Shown: positions 803 to 28,615 of the stretch, piece after piece
Layout: each line of letters opens with the position of its first letter
Position numbering within the stretch: position 1 is the first letter of the stretch
From: a virus
Length of the DNA stretch: 45,106 nt
Virus record (IMG/VR): IMGVR_UViG_3300043411_002265
Span: 1 to 45,106 of that record
Direction: 5' to 3' (one strand)
Position numbers and translations under genes: made by a program
Notes under the pieces: generated by a model
What the model saw: the letters and a program-made list of their open reading frames with translations, nothing else
Databases searched by the model: none
What the model was told of the DNA's origin: nothing

Positions 803-2380
803 CTATTGTAGGAATTCGTAGTCACCGGTCATGAACTGGTATGCTATGTTAGCAAAAACAGCGGAGTGAAGCCAGTCATCCGGTTCATCCGGGTGGTGGC
901 GGAACACCCTGCTCCCCGCAAAGGTCTCTTCCTCGAACACGTTCAAAGCGTCTTTCCAATGAGGCTCGTGGAGATCCCAGCAAGGAGTTTCAAACCTGTC
1001 CCGTCCCATACGTATCTTCATCAATACGTTGTCGATGGCCTGAGTGCGGTCGGCAGCCAGGAATAATCCTTGTTTATCCCACCGTAGCTTTATCTTGGCC
1101 ATGACGTAGTTTATAAGGATAACCTTGTCGAACCCAAGTTCTTTTTGCAGTAGTTGCCCCTGAAGCACCCCAACCCCCCTGTCAGCCCCTATCATCTGGC
1201 ATCTCCACTCCCGGAACAGTTGTACGGCCCTCTCCACCTGGGCAAGGATATGGATACCTTGCATCTTCTCGGAGTACAAGTTGTAGAGCTTACCTTGGTG
1301 GTCTACCCCTATCACCGTCATCACCGTAAAGGACTTCGTGGATCCTGTCACAGACCAGTCGATGCCCAGGATGCGATGGGTGAACTGCCCCGTCTGCGGG
1401 TGCTTGTAGGCGTAACTCTTCCACTCCTGGTTGCAACACGACAACGCCTCCCGGACGGAGATAGCCTTGCCGGCCAAGTCTGTAGCCAGCCCAAAAGCTT
1501 CGTTGGCGAGCTTGGCAGGGGAATATAGTCCTCCATTCAACGCCTGGTCTACCTTCTCCCGTATCCGCAACCATTTGTTCTGCCGGGTATTGGAGGTCAT
1601 GATGAACTGGGGGAGGTGGAAACCGATCTTGTTCTTGATATCGGTGGCGGCGATCCATCTACCCTCCGCCATGTTGATAGGCTTCAGACACCTGTCGCAG
1701 ACGGGGCCGATGTCCTTGCTGCAGATAATCATGCAGGTATCGTAGTTATCCGGGATAACGTGGTGTCCACAATGTGTACACTTGCACACCCACTCCATCC
1801 GGTTGGTAGTCATCCACGCCTGCTCCAGCGTGTTGGCGGTGGACTTAGATGTACCTGAGAGAACCTTGAATCCAAACTCCGAAGCGGAGAGAATCTCGTA
1901 GATAGGAACCAGCGCGTCCCATGAAACGTCCTGCACCTCGTCCACCAGCAACTGGTCCGCCATGATTCCCCGGATACGGTCAGCGTCGTGTTCGTTCTCT
2001 GCATAGGAGAGATAGATCTTCGATCCGTTGTTGAAGCTCTTCTCAAACACGTTACGAGTTGTGTTTGTATTGGTGAAGTGTTTCTTTACGAGTGGGGATC
2101 GGATCAGAGGGTCAACGTACATTCCACTGAATCGCTTCGTTTGAATCTGCAGGGGTGCTATGTACAAGGAGTTGAAGTGGCTTCGCAGGATGGACTTTGT
2201 TACCAGTCTTCCTCCCTGTGACACGGATTTTCCTACCTGTCTTCCGGCCTTGAGAACCATGAACTCAGGGTCGAGATCATACACCAACTCGAAGGGGAGG
2301 TAGTTGTCGAACGACAGCTTCGCCCCCTTCAAATCAAGTAGGGCAGTGGCAAGTCTGGAGGGTCTGGCGTTTACTTTCAT
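803..2380 (-). CDS. terL: Phage terminase large subunit (DNA packaging ATPase/nuclease)
   Basis: This is the motor that translocates genomic DNA into the procapsid through the portal and cuts it to length. The N-terminal ATPase domain shows a Walker A motif KAGRQVGKS (about residues 44-52) and a Walker B LLVDEVQD (144-151). The nuclease domain begins near residue 338 with GIDWSVTGS, the first acidic residue being D341, and a later GADRGVG supplies another. Between the two domains lies a Cys cluster (C199, C201, C204, C216, C220, C228, C231) that looks like a zinc-binding insertion. The 525 residues are a normal length for the family. The gene is divergent from the ubiquitin-like cassette. No strong ribosome binding site precedes the ATG at 2380. 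Confidence 0.9.
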   Translation of the reverse strand: MKVNARPSRLATALLDLKGAKLSFDNYLPFELVYDLDPEFMVLKAGRQVGKSVSQGGRLVTKSILRSHFNSLYIAPLQIQTKRFSGMYVDPLIRSPLVKKHFTNTNTTRNVFEKSFNNGSKIYLSYAENEHDADRIRGIMADQLLVDEVQDVSWDALVPIYEILSASEFGFKVLSGTSKSTANTLEQAWMTTNRMEWVCKCTHCGHHVIPDNYDTCMIICSKDIGPVCDRCLKPINMAEGRWIAATDIKNKIGFHLPQFIMTSNTRQNKWLRIREKVDQALNGGLYSPAKLANEAFGLATDLAGKAISVREALSCCNQEWKSYAYKHPQTGQFTHRILGIDWSVTGSTKSFTVMTVIGVDHQGKLYNLYSEKMQGIHILAQVERAVQLFREWRCQMIGADRGVGVLQGQLLQKELGFDKVILINYVMAKIKLRWDKQGLFLAADRTQAIDNVLMKIRMGRDRFETPCWDLHEPHWKDALNVFEEETFAGSRVFRHHPDEPDDWLHSAVFANIAYQFMTGDYEFLQ

Positions 2381-14256: not shown

Positions 14257-15111
14257 TCAGAGGTCTCCGAAGGCACCGCGGATTACGAGGTGGTCGTCTT
14301 GGTTGAAGAGCTGAGGAGCTGCGTTGATCATGAACGGGGACATGGCCGGGATGGCTTCTCCCATCTCTTTTCTGTGAGCCAGGATCTTGGCTTTATGGGC
14401 CTTCAGGGCATCCAGGTGCAGGTTGTTGGACATGAGCAGGGCGTTGATGTAGGGGTTAGGATCTTTCTCTTCCCGGATACTGCGTAGGGAAGCGCGGATG
14501 TTGTTATCGTAGGTCCTGTCTGCCTTGGCGCGTCGTACCGCCGATACACCGGACACACCAGCTCCCAGGATCCCAGCAAGGATAAGAGGGTTACGACGAA
14601 AGGCCGCGTAGGCCTTCAGGGTGCCGGCCAGTCCAAGTTGTTTGGCACCAGGGCCGTGCAACACCGATGGGTCTCGGAGAAGGTCGAATGCACCCCCCAT
14701 GGCAACTGCACCAAGACCCCCGACCAAGGTATTCCCCACAACGCCAGCGGCAACCCTGGCAGGCGGTATAGAAGTGTTGATGGTTGTCTTGTAGGGATCT
14801 TCGTTTTCCATCCTGGCATACTGCTTCAGCATCTCCACCTTCTCGGCATGAGGGATGGCGATCATGGCGTTGCTTTCCAGCATGGTACGGAGGTTATGGT
14901 ACGGACGACCTTGGGACTGGGCCATCAACAGGCCGCGGGCCATATCAATCGCTTCTTTGCGCTGGTCTCTTGTAAGTTCGCCGGCCATCAGGTAATCCAG
15001 GTAGGTATCTCGTACAGCTATTTTAACACTCTGCCTCCGCAAGGCAACTTTTTTTGGGAGGTACGGGCGGTCCGGACCGGGACCCAGGGCGGGGGATAAG
15101 GATTTGTCCAC
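14257..15111 (-). CDS. Unknown protein with glycine-rich hydrophobic segments; start uncertain
   Basis: The frame is open to 15183, but the upstream part lies inside the large inverted repeat and is unlikely to be coding. GTG at 15111 is the best available start, giving about 284 aa, although its AAGGGG site is farther upstream than ideal. The N-terminus is basic (KKVALRRQSVKIAVRD). Two hydrophobic Gly/Ala stretches (VAAGVVGNTLVGGLGAVAMG; LILAGILGAGVSGVSAV) may be membrane-inserting. The C-terminal part is polar. It leads the leftward group of five genes, so transcription probably starts in the inverted-repeat region. The function is unassigned. Confidence 0.7.
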   Translation of the reverse strand: MDKSLSPALGPGPDRPYLPKKVALRRQSVKIAVRDTYLDYLMAGELTRDQRKEAIDMARGLLMAQSQGRPYHNLRTMLESNAMIAIPHAEKVEMLKQYARMENEDPYKTTINTSIPPARVAAGVVGNTLVGGLGAVAMGGAFDLLRDPSVLHGPGAKQLGLAGTLKAYAAFRRNPLILAGILGAGVSGVSAVRRAKADRTYDNNIRASLRSIREEKDPNPYINALLMSNNLHLDALKAHKAKILAHRKEMGEAIPAMSPFMINAAPQLFNQDDHLVIRGAFGDL

Positions 15112-15295
15112 ATTTGATACACTTTCACCCCTTAGGTGGGATCTGGTCCAGGGGTGGTCCAGGGGTGGTCCACCCTGGGCCAAGGTGGTCCACCTAGTGT
15201 TTCCTTTTTAGTTTCAATAACTTAGAGGTTAGTGAACACTAACTGGTCCAGGTGGTCCACCTAAACTGACAAAAATACCTACCGTGGACATTTTG
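15104..15295 (+). repeat. Left arm of a large inverted repeat
   Basis: This 192-base arm is the imperfect reverse complement of 15470-15661, with the ends and several long blocks matching exactly. It contains GGTCCA at 15145, 15156, 15167, 15187, 15245 and 15254; the first three are spaced 11 bases apart. It also holds the interrupted palindrome GGTGGTCCACC. Its outer end overlaps the presumed start codon of the leftward gene. Confidence 0.9.
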
Positions 15296-15469
15296 TCGTT
15301 GACCCATCGGTCCAACTTTTCACGCCGAAACATATACTCCCTGAAGGCTTGGGGGCCTATAAATATAAATATATATTAAATTTTAATGTATAAGTATATG
15401 GCGTGCTCCTTGGGCCAGCCTGACGACTTATATGTATTCCGACTTCGACCCGGTCCAGGTGGTCCACCT

Positions 15470-15661
15470 CAAAATGTCCACGGTGGGTATTTTTTTGGAT
15501 TTGGGTGGACCACCTGGACCAGTTAGTGTCCACTAACCTCTAAGTTGTTGAAACCAAAAAGGAAAAGGGGTAGTGACAAAAAATGTCACAGGTGGACCAC
15601 CCCTGGACCACCCCTGGACCAGATCCCACCTAAGGGGTGAAAGTGTATCAAATGTGGACAA
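15470..15661 (-). repeat. Right arm of the large inverted repeat
   Basis: Imperfect reverse complement of the left arm, of identical length. It contains TGGACC at 15506, 15515, 15593, 15604 and 15615, the last three spaced 11 bases apart. An arm-specific hairpin (TGACAAAAAATGTCA, about 15574-15588) has no counterpart in the left arm. That shows the arms diverge internally while the iteron blocks and ends are conserved. Confidence 0.9.
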
Positions 15662-15669
15662 GACCCTAC

Positions 15670-15692
15670 AAAAAAAGAGGCCATAAGGCCCC
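15670..15692 (-). terminator. Intrinsic terminator at the end of the leftward replication block
   Basis: On the minus strand GGGGCC-TTAT-GGCCTC forms a six-pair stem with one wobble, followed by seven T residues. It lies just after the 87-aa gene and insulates the inverted-repeat region from leftward transcription. Confidence 0.8.
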
Positions 15693-15717
15693 TTTCTTTA
15701 TCAGAGAGTCTACTTAA

Positions 15718-15981
15718 TTATTCAGCAGAGCTCTCTGGTTTTGCATCAGCCTCTTCTTTTTTCAGAGAGGCTTGCTTCTCAACCTGTTCTTCCATCGCAT
15801 GGAACGTGGCAACGAGGTCTTGGTCCGACATCCTCACCATATTTTCGTACATTAGTTGCTGGCAGAGATCCTTCACAAATTCTGCGGAGGCATTGTCCAA
15901 CATTTTGAGTACACCTTGCGTGATGGCCACACGTGCTGTTGCTTTCAGAGCGAGTGGTCGTTGGTTTTGGTCGTTCGACAT
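15718..15981 (-). CDS. Small unknown protein at the end of the replication operon (87 aa)
   Basis: ATG at 15981 is chosen because AAGGTG sits about six bases upstream; an in-frame GTG lies at 15990. The product has helical segments (ALKATARVAITQGVLKMLDN and DLVATFHAMEEQVEKQ) and an acidic tail rich in Glu, Ala and Ser. No family is recognised. It is directly downstream of the DexA-like exonuclease and next to the candidate origin, so a DNA-replication accessory role is plausible but unproven. Confidence 0.75.
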   Translation of the reverse strand: MSNDQNQRPLALKATARVAITQGVLKMLDNASAEFVKDLCQQLMYENMVRMSDQDLVATFHAMEEQVEKQASLKKEEADAKPESSAE

Positions 15982-15991
15982 TTTTTTCACC

Positions 15992-16627
15992 TTAGGTTGG
16001 TTTGATTCTTCGCCATGCCTCTTGTACGGTGAGCGCTTGTGTCACACAATCGTCAAGAGCGTTGTGGTACGTGCCCTTACGGACAGAGTTCTTGTACTTC
16101 CCCCCAAACACAAAGGTCTCGAGGGTGCGTACGTCCATGAAGTCCCAGAATGGCATAGGAAAGTCCCTGTCGTTCGAGGATGATTTCATGGCGCGAACCC
16201 CGGTGTTCCGGTACGCGTGTGCAAGCATATCAATATCGAAGTTGGGAGCGCAAGCCCAGGCCTTGCCCCCCTTGCAGTTTTTCAGGATCCAGTCCCATAA
16301 CTCATCCAACGCCTGTGGGAGGTGCACCTTCTCCGGGTGCCCAATAATCTGGGCGTAGGCTTCTGCCTTGTCCGGCTTACTCCACCATGCCACCGTGCTC
16401 TCCTCAACCAGCCTCCCTACTTGGGTCTCCTTATGAAGCACCCGATAGAACGTAGGACAGGCGTAGCCCCCATCCTTGTCGATCAGGCTTTCTTGTTCCC
16501 CCAGCGGGTCGAACGCGATGGCTCCTATGCTCAGGATCACCGCGTTATCCTTCGTACCCAGGGTTTCCAGGTCAATCATGAGGTCCGTCCTGGACCCCTT
16601 CTTGTGGTAGCTACCAAGTTCAAGCAT
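15992..16627 (-). CDS. DexA-like 3'-5' exonuclease (DEDD superfamily)
   Basis: Exo I motif MIDLETLGT (residues 17-25) gives the first Asp and Glu metal ligands. Exo II is NFDIDMLAHAYRNTG and Exo III is HNALDDCVTQAL near the C-terminus, so all DEDD catalytic residues appear present. The 211-aa length and the WDFMDVRTLE segment match the T4 DexA / Rv2179c-like exonuclease group, which degrades 3' ends of DNA or RNA. It overlaps the primase-helicase gene by eight bases. Likely roles are nucleotide recycling, proofreading support or RNA trimming during replication. A DNA polymerase is not in the window. Confidence 0.85.
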   Translation of the reverse strand: MLELGSYHKKGSRTDLMIDLETLGTKDNAVILSIGAIAFDPLGEQESLIDKDGGYACPTFYRVLHKETQVGRLVEESTVAWWSKPDKAEAYAQIIGHPEKVHLPQALDELWDWILKNCKGGKAWACAPNFDIDMLAHAYRNTGVRAMKSSSNDRDFPMPFWDFMDVRTLETFVFGGKYKNSVRKGTYHNALDDCVTQALTVQEAWRRIKPT

Positions 16628-19589
16628 TGACTATCTCCGCTAGTTTCTCTTCGTCTTCACCCACCTTCGTGAGCCCCTCGTTATCACTCGTCCCATGTCC
16701 TCGGGTGGCGTACTCCGCTATCCTTCTCAGCTCATCCGGAGCCTTGTTCAGGTCGAACCTGGATAGCCTCTTCCTCGATCCATGCACCCGGTATCTTCCT
16801 GTGGACTCGAAATAGCTGGACTCCTGCATCAGCGTCTTGATCGAGTTGAAGGAATGGTTGTACTGCCTTCCGGTAAACCGATACCTGGCCATTACCCTGG
16901 CGTGCATATCACTCATCCAGATGTAGATCTTGCTGTCGTCCACGACGATATGCTCTTCCGACAGGATGGACCTTTCCGAAGTCAGGGATGACAACAGGGT
17001 CTCCCAGAAGTCTTGAAGGATATCTCCCTCTTGCTGGTCTACCACATCTGCCTTGATATGAGCGTACATGTCTTTCTCCAGGTCTATATACTCCGGGAAG
17101 TACGCATCTCTCAGCTCCTGCGCCATCAGCATGACTACCGACCATACGTTGGCCGTCCTCTTGCTGCAGCGTGTAGCCTCCGAGATACCTTGACAGGTTC
17201 TCCGACGCTTGGCGATAACCTCCTCCGGGTCCCTGCGAGACGCTTCCAGTATCCAGAACAGCCCCACACTGGTAGAGCTCCCTGTATCCGAAGCAGAGTT
17301 CAGCCAGTGGTAGGTGTCGTCCTCGCCATTCTTCGCTTCGGGAATACGGACAGGGATAAGCCTGGACCGTAGCGCGGGGTCATCGGGGATGTCCTCTCCA
17401 TTCAGCATGAAGTTGGCACGTACCTTGACCTCTACCACTTTCCCGACTCCTTCCCGTGATCCCATGGTCCTACCGGTTCGGTTGTACCAACCCCGGAACT
17501 TGGAGAAGTACTCCTTGGACTCCCCATCGTTTCTCATGTCGTCGATAGACATCGGCAAGGAGGAGTAGTAGCTGGCCTTTCTTTCCATACCCACACCGCT
17601 ACCCATGTTACTGATGTTGGTGCTGCCCAGCTCCCCCATCCCATACAGGTTTTGCACCCATTTGTTGATCGTGGATTTACCTCGCCCGTGCTTTCCCCAC
17701 ATATAGAGAATGGGGAACTCCCCCAGCTCCCCGAAGAACACGTCGGAGTATGCGTTGGCCCTGGACCAGCCCATGAATATCATGGTCATCAGCATGTTCC
17801 CCCCGAAGTTCTCCGAGAACTTGGAAATGAACATCTTCGTCAGGTCCTTGTAGTCCTGGTCCGAGTTCAGGATACGCATCACCGGTAGCCCCTCTCCATG
17901 AGAAGCGTCTTCCAGTTGCGAGGCGGCCTTGATACCAATGGAGTTCCCATTGATCCAGAAGATGTCGTCTTCGTCCTTGTTTCCCATCAGGATGTTTCCG
18001 CCAGGTTCAATCACACAGTTCTTGAACACCCATACCCTGAACTCCTTGGTCTTCACGAAGCCACAGTAATCCAGCAGGTGAACCAGGTGGTACGGGGTGG
18101 TGTTGAACAAGAACGACCATAGGTCCCGCAGGTCTTTCTCGGTACCCATGAACGTGCCATCTACTGAGTCCGCCACTGCGATCTCGAACATATGCTTTGA
18201 TACCTTGATCTCCGAGGTGATCTCCACTTCCGAGCTGAAGCCGGCCTGGTGAATGACGCGGATCAATCGTATCCTACCAGCACTACGGCTCAGGAAGATC
18301 ACTGACATCCTCATGATGAAATCCGTCAACTGCTCATCGTAAGTAACCCCGTCTTTTCCGGGTTTCCTCCGGTAGTAGCATCCGTTCTTCTCGATGATCG
18401 AGGAGTTTTCAATGGAGCGTTCCCCAGTGGTTGACTCCTTGGTGGTGTTGGCGCTGACGTAGTGCTCCAGGGCATACGTGATCGTCCCACCTTTCTTTAG
18501 GTACTGGTCGATGTCCTTTTCTTCCTGTGGAGGGCGGATATGGGTACAGGCAGGTAGACCACTGCTCTGCAACAGAACTGTGATCTGATCCCTGTACTTG
18601 TCCCCCGCTCCACCAACTCCATCGCTGTCGAATGCGGTGGTCACCTCGATCTTCTTTTTGCTGGTGGTGAGGAACCCACGAAGGAACGATAGCTGGTCTT
18701 TCCCGATCGACCCATTCGTACCGATTACCCCGCCATCCCAGTCAGATTCCAGGACGCTGATCACATCGTTCTCACCCTCAACGATCATCAGCTTGGTGTG
18801 CTTGTCCAGGTCACTCTGGTTATAAAACATCGAGCCATCGGACCAATACTCTTTCCGTTGCTGGAAGGAGAGGTTCTTGGTCGGGTCCTTCATGGTGAAC
18901 CGTACTGCGTTCTTCCGATAGGTAAACGGGTAGATGAACATTGGCTTGGAGAACAGGTCCCCGGTCTTCTTTCCGTTCAGGAGCCCCGTAGTCTCGATGG
19001 CCGCATGGTCATACCCGAGAGAAAGGAAGTGCTGCATCAGGACGTTCCCACCCCCCGTCCAGCCTACCTTCATTCTCTTCAGGGTATCCAGTCGATGCCC
19101 ACGTACCTCGATCTGATACTTTATAGGCGTACGCCCGTCCAGCTCAGGATACGTACGGGTATCTGTGAGCAAGCAGTCGTGGTAGAAGTCCATCGCCATG
19201 TTCCGCAAGGCCTGAGTGATGCTACCGGATCTCTTCGGGAGTTCCATGGCGAAGTCTTTTGCAAGGGCCTCGCATGCCTGGTACGCATCTGCTTCGGGGT
19301 CCAGATTGTTGAGATGTAGGTACAGGTCGATGACGGTGCCGCCTTCGTTGCAGCTAAAGCAGTGGTATCTGTCATAGGCCCCCTTCTCATCGTTCAAGGA
19401 GGCAGACCCATCTGCTTCATACACCGTGAACGCATCGTTATGGTGCCCCAGCGGGCAAGGGTTCACCCGCATGGCGGACCCCACGTTCAGTACTTCCGCA
19501 TCCGGGCAGTACTTCTCTACCGCTTGCAGCATACGGACATTCTGTTTTACGAGGGTGAAAGGGTCTTGTTCTGGTCTGACTTTTGTCAT
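16620..19589 (-). CDS. Bifunctional DNA primase-helicase (CHC2 zinc finger, Toprim, P-loop ATPase)
   Basis: The N-terminus carries a zinc finger of the primase type (C45, a His at 49 or 50, C77, C80). A Toprim domain follows with MIVEGEND (E271) and FDSDGVGG (D321, D323), the metal-binding residues for primer synthesis. The C-terminal half has a Walker A motif WGKHGRGKST (631-640), a Walker B-like MSIDDMRN (680-687) and an Arg-containing LRSRLIPVRIP later. This resembles the SF3/D5-type helicases of phages and plasmids. At 989 aa it is long for a primase-helicase; residues 390-600 are unassigned. GAGG lies seven bases before the ATG. Expected role: lay primers and unwind the fork. Confidence 0.85.
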   Translation of the reverse strand: MTKVRPEQDPFTLVKQNVRMLQAVEKYCPDAEVLNVGSAMRVNPCPLGHHNDAFTVYEADGSASLNDEKGAYDRYHCFSCNEGGTVIDLYLHLNNLDPEADAYQACEALAKDFAMELPKRSGSITQALRNMAMDFYHDCLLTDTRTYPELDGRTPIKYQIEVRGHRLDTLKRMKVGWTGGGNVLMQHFLSLGYDHAAIETTGLLNGKKTGDLFSKPMFIYPFTYRKNAVRFTMKDPTKNLSFQQRKEYWSDGSMFYNQSDLDKHTKLMIVEGENDVISVLESDWDGGVIGTNGSIGKDQLSFLRGFLTTSKKKIEVTTAFDSDGVGGAGDKYRDQITVLLQSSGLPACTHIRPPQEEKDIDQYLKKGGTITYALEHYVSANTTKESTTGERSIENSSIIEKNGCYYRRKPGKDGVTYDEQLTDFIMRMSVIFLSRSAGRIRLIRVIHQAGFSSEVEITSEIKVSKHMFEIAVADSVDGTFMGTEKDLRDLWSFLFNTTPYHLVHLLDYCGFVKTKEFRVWVFKNCVIEPGGNILMGNKDEDDIFWINGNSIGIKAASQLEDASHGEGLPVMRILNSDQDYKDLTKMFISKFSENFGGNMLMTMIFMGWSRANAYSDVFFGELGEFPILYMWGKHGRGKSTINKWVQNLYGMGELGSTNISNMGSGVGMERKASYYSSLPMSIDDMRNDGESKEYFSKFRGWYNRTGRTMGSREGVGKVVEVKVRANFMLNGEDIPDDPALRSRLIPVRIPEAKNGEDDTYHWLNSASDTGSSTSVGLFWILEASRRDPEEVIAKRRRTCQGISEATRCSKRTANVWSVVMLMAQELRDAYFPEYIDLEKDMYAHIKADVVDQQEGDILQDFWETLLSSLTSERSILSEEHIVVDDSKIYIWMSDMHARVMARYRFTGRQYNHSFNSIKTLMQESSYFESTGRYRVHGSRKRLSRFDLNKAPDELRRIAEYATRGHGTSDNEGLTKVGEDEEKLAEIVNA

Positions 19590-22294: not shown

Positions 22295-23170
22295 TTACAC
22301 CTCGTAACGTACGGAGGCGTCTTCCCGTTCTACCACTTCCGCAGTTCCTTCAATGACGATGTCACCAGGATTGCGGTGGCTGTCATCCCCGATACGGGTA
22401 GCGCCAGACTTGTTTTCCAGGGACATGGTAGCACGACGTTCTACACCCGCCTGGAAAGCTTCCAGTTGGTGACGACGGCTCTCTCCAGAGTAGCTGAACA
22501 GCTCTCGCAGGAACGCTTCGACATCAGGTGACAAGGTGAAGGAACCTGGCGCAGAGAAGGAGACGCTGGTCAGGAACACGTTCTTGTTCTCCGGATGGCG
22601 GGAAGCTTCCACGGTGTAGGAGCGACGGTAGATGTGGGTCTTGGTAGACTTCACAAGCTTCTCGAAGTTCATGCCACCACGATACCCGGTCTTGCTGAAG
22701 TTGATCAGGAAGATATCGGACAGGTCAGCCTTGATGACTAGGAACTTGAGACTCTTGGTGCAAGGCACCTTATTGTTCTCTTCGTTCCACTGGGAGAACT
22801 GGCAGGTACGGCAGTCACCATACTTCCAGCCTGTGATACCATCAGGGCTTTCGCAGAGGCGGCGATCACTTCCGAGGTCTTCCGGCCACAGGTCACGGGT
22901 AGTCCAGATACGTAGAGGGACCACGTCCATGGTTTTGAGCACTTCATTGCTAAGGACGAAGTCACCGGGCTTGCACGACGGAAGGGTATCCGTGTTAGTG
23001 GTGGCCTGTACCAGCTTCAGCATACTCGGGTGCCACTGGATTGGCTTGTCGCCCACACCTTCAATCACTTCTCCCATCCTGGCAAGCAGGGCAAGAGCGT
23101 TAGCACGTAGGGTGGCGTCCTGGATGGCTTCAGCAGCCGTTGTCATTTGTGGGGTTACGATGTCAGTCAT
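22295..23170 (-). CDS. Cys-rich 291-aa protein, candidate ssDNA-binding or recombination factor
   Basis: The central part has four Cys residues in a zinc-ribbon-like array: LCESPDG, then GDCRTCQF, then VPCTKSL. Strand-rich segments on either side (SLKFLVIKADLSDIFLINFS; VFLTSVSFSAPGSFTLS) could be an OB-like or beta-sheet fold. The C-terminus is polar and acidic. Phage proteins with a central zinc ribbon next to a Cas4-like nuclease and primase are often single-stranded DNA binding or recombination factors, but no homologue was confirmed. It starts within the end of the 70-aa gene (eight-base overlap). Confidence 0.75.
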   Translation of the reverse strand: MTDIVTPQMTTAAEAIQDATLRANALALLARMGEVIEGVGDKPIQWHPSMLKLVQATTNTDTLPSCKPGDFVLSNEVLKTMDVVPLRIWTTRDLWPEDLGSDRRLCESPDGITGWKYGDCRTCQFSQWNEENNKVPCTKSLKFLVIKADLSDIFLINFSKTGYRGGMNFEKLVKSTKTHIYRRSYTVEASRHPENKNVFLTSVSFSAPGSFTLSPDVEAFLRELFSYSGESRRHQLEAFQAGVERRATMSLENKSGATRIGDDSHRNPGDIVIEGTAEVVEREDASVRYEV

Positions 23171-27820: not shown

Positions 27821-28615
27821 GTGTTTACTAACCCGTGGATTCCCGTGAACTTATCCTATTACTACGACTCCATCTGCAAGCAGCCTCTCCTGTCACGGGA
27901 CGAAGAAGAAGCCCTGTTCAACGTGGTCCGAGATACCACTGACCTCTACTCCGATAAGGAGAAGGCGGCAGCCAGGGACCGTATCATAACCGCTAACCTG
28001 AGGTTCGTCTTCCAGAAAGCCAAGGAGAAATCCAAGTCAGATCCGGAGATGTTCGAAGTGCTCATCGCTGCGGGAAACGAAGGGCTGTTGAAAGCCTTTC
28101 GAAAGTTCAATCCGGACAGAGGAATACGATTTCTATCCTACGCCGGATGGTGGGTGCTTCAGACGCAGTTGAAGGAGATGTCCCTCATGCGCATCGTAGC
28201 CCTACCCATTTGGAAACAGCAGCTTGCTGCCAAGATAGCCAGGATACAACTGGACTCGGAAGACCAGGTTCCTATTGATAAGCTGTGCGAGATATTCCCA
28301 GAACACAGCCGTTCAGTTGTGGAGGAGCTTTCTTCCACCAAGTACCTCACCTACTACTTTGAGGATTTCATGGAGGACAACTCCACGTTCGAGGAGGAGT
28401 ACGCCTCGTACCTGCAGGAGGAATCCGAAGACCTCTCCTCTCTCTGCATGAAGCTCCCGCATCCCTGTGGGATGGTCCTTATTATGTACTTCGGACTGCA
28501 CGACGGAATCCGCCGCGGAACAAAATACGTTTCTGCCTCTTTGGGCATTTCAGTAGATGAGGTAAAGAAAGCGAGGAAGAAAGGGCTGGCTATCCTGCAC
28601 CATTTACTCTGTTAA
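27821..28615 (+). CDS. Phage-encoded sigma-70-family RNA polymerase sigma factor
   Basis: The GTG start at 27821 has TAAGGG upstream. The sequence shows sigma region 2: ITANLRFVFQKAKEKS, then VLIAAGNEGLLKAFRKFNPD, then IRFLSYAGWWVLQTQLKEM (regions 2.1-2.4, polymerase-clamp and -10 contact). The C-terminal region 4 has a helix-turn-helix (VSASLGISVDEVKKARKKGL). A short region 1.2-like helix (LLSRDEEEALFNVV) is at the front. It would redirect host or phage RNA polymerase to phage promoters, perhaps the GGTATAAG sites. It stands alone on the plus strand between leftward genes. Confidence 0.85.
   Translation: MFTNPWIPVNLSYYYDSICKQPLLSRDEEEALFNVVRDTTDLYSDKEKAAARDRIITANLRFVFQKAKEKSKSDPEMFEVLIAAGNEGLLKAFRKFNPDRGIRFLSYAGWWVLQTQLKEMSLMRIVALPIWKQQLAAKIARIQLDSEDQVPIDKLCEIFPEHSRSVVEELSSTKYLTYYFEDFMEDNSTFEEEYASYLQEESEDLSSLCMKLPHPCGMVLIMYFGLHDGIRRGTKYVSASLGISVDEVKKARKKGLAILHHLLC

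Follow-up and report, generated by a model that had tools for sequence, protein, structure and literature searches.

The DNA examined here, a 45,106-base linear IMG/VR record (hereafter the window), carries a long inverted repeat packed with iterons, and in related large phages such origin-like elements occur in several copies per genome, most of which are evenly spaced; this multi-copy arrangement is the new observation reported here. We are rather confident that the element is an iteron origin fired by the product of a nearby gene, termed here Pri-Rep, and that it is one of several such origins per genome. In a wider reading that we hold to be probable, this phage family replicates from three to five near-evenly spaced origins of the SaPI/PICI type that are all read by one Pri-Rep, all copies have changed their iteron word jointly on several occasions, and selection for a shorter copying time acts on how many origins there are and how they are spaced.

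Salmonella phage Arash (180.8 kb) and Vibrio phage D69 (186.7 kb) have terminases that are 61% and 47% identical, respectively, to the window terminase, and the window primase is about 29% identical to the primases of both. This kinship is our reason for regarding the window as a fragment of a much larger genome, namely, as far as sequence comparison can tell, a 45-kb piece of a phage of roughly 165-187 kb related to Arash and D69. No DNA-level relatives of the element region were found in the phage collection, and scans of IMG/VR with a single primase or terminase sequence gave no matches; the IMG/VR relatives described below were found by scans with primase and terminase alignments, the primase alignment yielding about 15 true relatives.

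The architecture of the element can be read directly from the DNA (Table 1). The region proposed as a dyad in the first-pass annotation of the window aligns to its own reverse complement from end to end (558 bp, 76%) with a self-complementarity score of 433, compared to a maximum of 36 in 200 first-order shuffles, and is thus real; the next-best inverted repeat within the window scores only 45. Each arm consists of two ungapped blocks separated by 25 unmatched nt, the outer pair (15097-15174/15591-15668, 78 nt) being 96% complementary and the inner pair (15200-15304/15461-15565, 105 nt) 89% complementary. The arms are equal in length, as had been described, but measure about 201 bp from position 15104 rather than 192 bp. 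Words GGTCCA/TGGACC, of which at least 14 had been claimed, occur exactly 14 times in the element, compared to an expectation of 0.38 based on the remainder of the window, and the shorter GTCCA/TGGAC 19 times, compared to 1.67 expected; their spacings of 11 and 9 bases and the nearly pure A/T stretch of about 40 bases in the middle were likewise borne out, and no other segment of the window exceeds 34 A/T of 45. In every GTCCA-type element counted the orientation of the iterons reverses at the axis. Boxes similar to the inner box adjoin the core also in relatives (e.g. AACATACACCCACC and AACCATACCTCACTTT, compared by eye). The element is preceded by a strong terminator of the minus-strand replication operon and followed by the next minus-strand gene. 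This terminator hairpin was seen by folding and is absent from the output of the promoter/terminator scan; of the insulating terminators suggested initially, it is the convincing one, whereas the hairpin on the other flank (15032-15056) is weak. As for a reading as an RNA element, no Rfam family matches the region.

Table 1. Features of the window discussed in the text, with positions counted from its first base
Feature	Positions	Strand	Basis or remark
Terminase gene	803..2380		closest to Arash group
Gene on other side of element	14257..15021	-	no homologues in relatives
Whole dyad element, putative iteron origin	15104..15661	.	self-alignment, shuffle control, like architecture 3' of pri-rep in relatives
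Left arm	15104..15304	+	ungapped self-match blocks
Outer box TTGTCCACATTTG, left end	15104..15116	+	sequence; contains GTCCA
Left iteron array	15145..15192	+	GGTCCA at 15145, 15156, 15167 (11-bp pitch) and 15187
GGTCCA pair, 9-bp pitch (15245/15254)	15245..15259	+	word count
Inner box AAAAATACCTACCGTGGACATTTTG	15271..15295	+	sequence
A/T-rich core, putative unwinding element	15358..15402	.	40/45 A/T
GGTCCA pair, 9-bp pitch (15452/15461), within right half	15452..15466	+	word count
Right arm, inverted copy	15461..15661	-	ungapped self-match blocks
Inner box, inverted copy	15470..15494	-	sequence
TGGACC pair, 9-bp pitch (15506/15515), mirrors 15245-15259	15506..15520	-	word count
Right iteron array	15593..15620	-	TGGACC at 15593, 15604, 15615 (11-bp pitch)
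Outer box, right end, inverted copy	15649..15661	-	sequence
Intrinsic terminator of replication operon	15664..15699	-	15661-15705 folds at -21.9 kcal/mol, then T run
90-aa gene beside element	15718..15990	-	no homologue in any relative examined
Exonuclease gene between pri-rep and element	15992..16627	-	phrog_255, E 5e-47
Pri-Rep, 989 aa, proposed iteron binder	16620..19589	-	Pfam and predicted structure
Probable single-stranded DNA-binding protein, 291 aa	22295..23170	-	OB-fold-like matches, best Z 7.8

The position of the element with respect to the pri-rep gene was also observed directly. A scan of D69 for self-inverted repeats returned one dominant match (125061-125392), located just 3' of the exonuclease and primase genes, i.e. 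in a position syntenic to that of the element in the window, and a dyad element with an A/T core occupies the same place in many IMG/VR relatives. Pri-rep and an element could both be placed in 17 genomes, and in every one of them the element closest to pri-rep is found on its 3' side, 0.8-13 kb from the gene end; the truncated contig G010 lacks this part of the genome.

Sequence searches of Pri-Rep detect only its primase half, with a DnaG-type Zn ribbon and a Toprim domain (Pfam), and the assignment of the remainder rests on a predicted model (mffaa6187986e; mean pLDDT 77, pTM 0.50). In this model residues 120-384 match the DnaG primase core (5guj, Z 23.6), residues 392-969 match the replication initiator of SaPIbov1 (8tch_B, Z 22.4, 459 residues) and residues 390-966 match SCCmec Cch (5dgk_A, Z 22.1, 459 residues); the best Foldseek matches agree with the SaPIbov1 initiator/Cch assignment. 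The rmsd to known structures is large (10-12 Å; 12.5 Å to 8tch), probably due to a differing arrangement of domains in the model. On the basis of these structural matches, and with the reservation that they concern a prediction, the protein is best described as a Pri-Rep fusion, in which a SaPI-Rep/Cch-like AAA+ initiator-helicase follows a DnaG-type primase. The initial proposal that this element next to the replication genes is the best origin candidate receives strong support from comparison, namely from its placement in 17 of 17 genomes, from the PICI/SaPI plan of the region and from the predicted SaPI-Rep/Cch-like fold of the adjacent protein.

Another product of the replication block, encoded at 22295-23170, was considered as the iteron binder, with the idea coming from its homologues, which are limited to the relatives with TGTCCA-type iterons (all of them), G007 and G015. 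It was set aside as binder or initiator on account of its OB-fold-like model and of the T7-type SSB that D69 has at a comparable position, and also because G015 possesses a homologue yet a different iteron word. The pair formed by this protein and the T7-type SSB of D69 suggests a non-homologous replacement of SSB.

The copies of the element were counted directly in eleven near-complete relatives: five copies are present in Arash, G009, G012, G013, G016, G019 and G020, four in G001, and three in D69, G004 and G017. Thus, the element stands as a candidate origin, but the notion that it is "the" single origin probably does not, given the three to five copies in complete relatives. The gaps between copies are 39.7, 33.7, 38.4, 34.8 and 34.2 kb in Arash, and 57.7, 60.2 and 68.8 kb in D69. 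Randomly placed points would leave a smallest gap this large with P = 2e-5 (Arash), 0.005 (D69), 0.009 (G001), 0.03 (G017) and 0.055 (G004). In the five-copy genomes the elements occupy orthologous loci, as judged from flanking proteins, so their P-values are not independent and the even spacing among them is largely inherited; the three-, four- and five-copy groups are more nearly independent of each other, yet some loci are shared among them as well. Arash and D69 were deposited as linear genomes, matching ends are present in G004, G009, G012, G017, G019 and G020, and for G001 and G013, which have none, the wrap-around gap was assumed. No clear multi-copy element was found in the fragments G007 and G015. 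In the window only one copy is visible, with flanks of 15 kb and 29 kb, which fits a spacing of 30-60 kb but proves nothing; that this phage, known only as a fragment, has further copies is an inference. The element is very probably a start site of replication, origin activity itself being inferred, and copying from three to five such sites, usually at even distances around the genome, would be an unusual mode for a bacterial virus.

Even spacing, several copies per genome, dyad symmetry and independence from gene orientation would also fit an anchor for segregation, condensation or packaging, i.e. an evenly spaced site for a DNA-organizing protein at which no replication starts. We consider such an anchor improbable, since one copy always lies 3' of the initiator-type pri-rep gene, the A/T core between opposed iterons follows the plan of PICI origins, and no ParB-like or condensin-like gene was detected among the window proteins scanned.

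Baculovirus homologous regions (hrs) resemble the origin-like elements in being dispersed palindromic repeats, several per genome, that contain origins, but they double as enhancers bound by IE-1, and no A/T-core dyad beside an initiator gene is described in the study consulted (PMC2834656). By analogy with hrs, which both enhance transcription and contain origins (PMC2834656), the phage element could be mainly a transcription enhancer and only secondarily an origin. The phage family does encode its own sigma factors, and Arash also RNA polymerase beta-type subunits, and it probably runs its own transcription. Nevertheless, we give this interpretation only a slim chance: the elements are not tied in a conserved way to gene starts or to gene orientation, their even spacing has no obvious use for an enhancer, and a scan that does not cover phage-specific promoters detected no consensus sigma-70 promoter within the element.

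The genes flanking the elements are convergent, divergent or codirectional, and with such variation the element cannot be the promoter of one gene. The same observation bears on the operator-only alternative that the first-pass annotation had left open, taken here as a regulatory site solely for the neighbouring minus-strand gene (14257-15021). In the window the element does occupy the intergenic stretch after the replication operon and ahead of the next gene, and iterons are able to act as operators, but in relatives the element is retained whatever the orientation of its flanking genes and is present at several places in each genome, and neither this gene nor the 90-aa gene has homologues in them; an exclusive operator role fits poorly and is very unlikely. 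The GC-skew check that had been proposed gave no support for origin activity, as no consistent sign change was found at the elements (rotation controls). In most genomes the right side has the higher AT skew, but this trend is weak, with rotation tests mostly not significant, and its sign is reversed in G017.

Within each genome all copies of the element share one iteron word, and the words differ between lineages. By reading the elements, without a motif program, we assigned nine words in about 20 genomes: GGTCCA (the window), TGTCCA, TGTCTA, TGTAGC, TGTAAC, TGTCAC, TGATAC, TGTGTC and TGTTCC (G015, in which only one weak element was seen). The concerted change is itself a direct observation: on the pri-rep tree the nine words require eight changes, which is the minimum, and among close relatives of Arash the same five loci carry three different words. 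Concerted words at conserved loci are expected if one trans-acting protein reads all copies, and are unexpected for mobile insertions. Thus, a small transposon-like element (MITE), or some other inverted repeat that inserted recently, for which long terminal inverted repeats, noncoding character and several copies per genome in relatives might speak, is hardly tenable, being already contradicted by the orthologous loci that the copies occupy across deep divergence, and further by the even spacing of most copies, by the concerted words and by the absence of a visible target-site duplication at 15104/15661.

If the element is an iteron origin, Pri-Rep is the proposed reader of its words. The ratio of C-terminal to ATPase identity of Pri-Rep averages 0.74 for pairs of genomes with different words and 0.89 for pairs with the same word, the pairs being non-independent. 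Together with analogy, the lower C-terminal identity when words differ is suggestive of the C-terminal domain reading the iterons, with the binding itself inferred.

Known replicons were compared with the arrangement found here. The published origin of PICIs directly follows pri-rep on its 3' side and comprises two iteron sets around an A/T-rich region; a pri-ori segment replicates when cloned (PMC6092414). The window and its relatives resemble the PICI/SaPI replicons (SaPIbov1, EcCICFT073) in possessing two iteron sets that flank an A/T region, in the origin-like element lying 3' of the primase/initiator gene, and in the fold of the initiator-helicase, which matches that of SaPIbov1 at the level of prediction only. 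They differ in that the phage element is separated from pri-rep by other genes instead of being immediately adjacent, the carrier is a large tailed phage and not an island, the primase half of Pri-Rep contains the full DnaG-type Zn ribbon and Toprim, the dyad of the window is long and near-perfect, and complete relatives contain three to five mostly evenly spaced copies. Identification of the window phage itself as a PICI was rejected: its terminase and portal genes are those of a large phage, its relatives are ~165-187 kb long, and, among the traits of such mobile elements, no integrase was found in the 30 window proteins scanned with PHROGs. By this comparison the origin module probably works like a SaPI/PICI replicon, without the phage being a PICI.

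SCCmec Cch resembles the corresponding part of Pri-Rep in its predicted fold, but its structure lacks the DnaG-type primase half, and we know of no multi-copy origin in SCCmec. In satellite phage P4 the alpha protein combines primase, helicase and origin recognition, and iteron sites are present at more than one place (ori and crr), but these are two sites on a genome of ~11 kb and not an evenly spaced set. The P4 alpha protein with its cognate ori is also mentioned in the PICI study (PMC6092414). T4 possesses several origins (oriA-oriG) on a phage genome of ~170 kb, including oriE with evenly spaced 12-nt iterons, but its origins have no common sequence motif, and oriF and oriG start from promoter R-loops (PMC3016281). 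The likeness to T4 is therefore in several origins per phage genome, whereas the copies in the relatives of the window are a common dyad element, and the iterons argue against an R-loop origin of the T4 type, with phage-specific promoters lying outside the promoter scan. Herpes simplex oriL and oriS, with inverted initiator sites around an A/T core and three copies per genome, differ in belonging to a eukaryotic virus, in having the unrelated initiator UL9, and in being shorter and not evenly spaced.

In the mechanism we propose, Pri-Rep would bind the GGTCCA iterons from both sides of the core, two oppositely oriented initiator-helicase complexes would assemble on the element and melt the A/T core, and the forks would be primed by the primase domain of Pri-Rep itself. 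With three to five mostly evenly spaced origins, the genomes of the complete relatives would probably be copied from several of them at once. Binding, melting, origin activity and the bidirectionality suggested by the symmetry are all inferred.

Bacterial chromosomes normally have one origin per replicon. If our reading is true, these phages offer a clean natural system for asking what leads some genomes to rely on multiple, evenly spaced origins, how all of these are served by a single initiator, and how the specificity of origin and initiator changes jointly across several loci. A connection would also emerge between large tailed phages and the machinery with which phage satellites (SaPI/PICI) and SCCmec replicate. 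A search of the literature, restricted to open-access papers, retrieved none that names Arash or evenly spaced phage origins; this speaks only weakly for novelty. Replication can already be mapped, since the element is present in two phage isolates, Salmonella phage Arash and Vibrio phage D69.

Several further observations concern the records themselves. Contigs G005, G006, G016 and G020 start or stop inside an element, as expected since repeats break assemblies, and fragment records of this phage family may be cut at their origins. The contig ends of G012, G017, G019 and G020 carry terminal repeats of exactly 127 bp, which look like assembler k-mer overlaps of circular assemblies and not like true phage ends. 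Small "hypothetical" genes overlap or abut origin-like elements in D69 (L006, 19806-20392) and Arash (L007, 16739-17439), and these annotated genes may not be real. In G014, internal repeats of up to 1 kb are clustered at ~49-70 kb; they lie apart from the origin elements and may be repetitive structural genes. In the window, a protein with Sigma-70 region 2 is encoded at 27821-28615 on the plus strand (Pfam E 1.7e-6). The window terminase is closest to the Arash group and the window primase, whose branch is long and weakly placed, has its highest score with the TGTCCA group; judged from these affinities, the genome may be mosaic. Finally, an imperfect inverted repeat at 70865-71178 of G015, which contains GTTCCC words and is less A/T-rich at its centre, may represent a further class of iterons.
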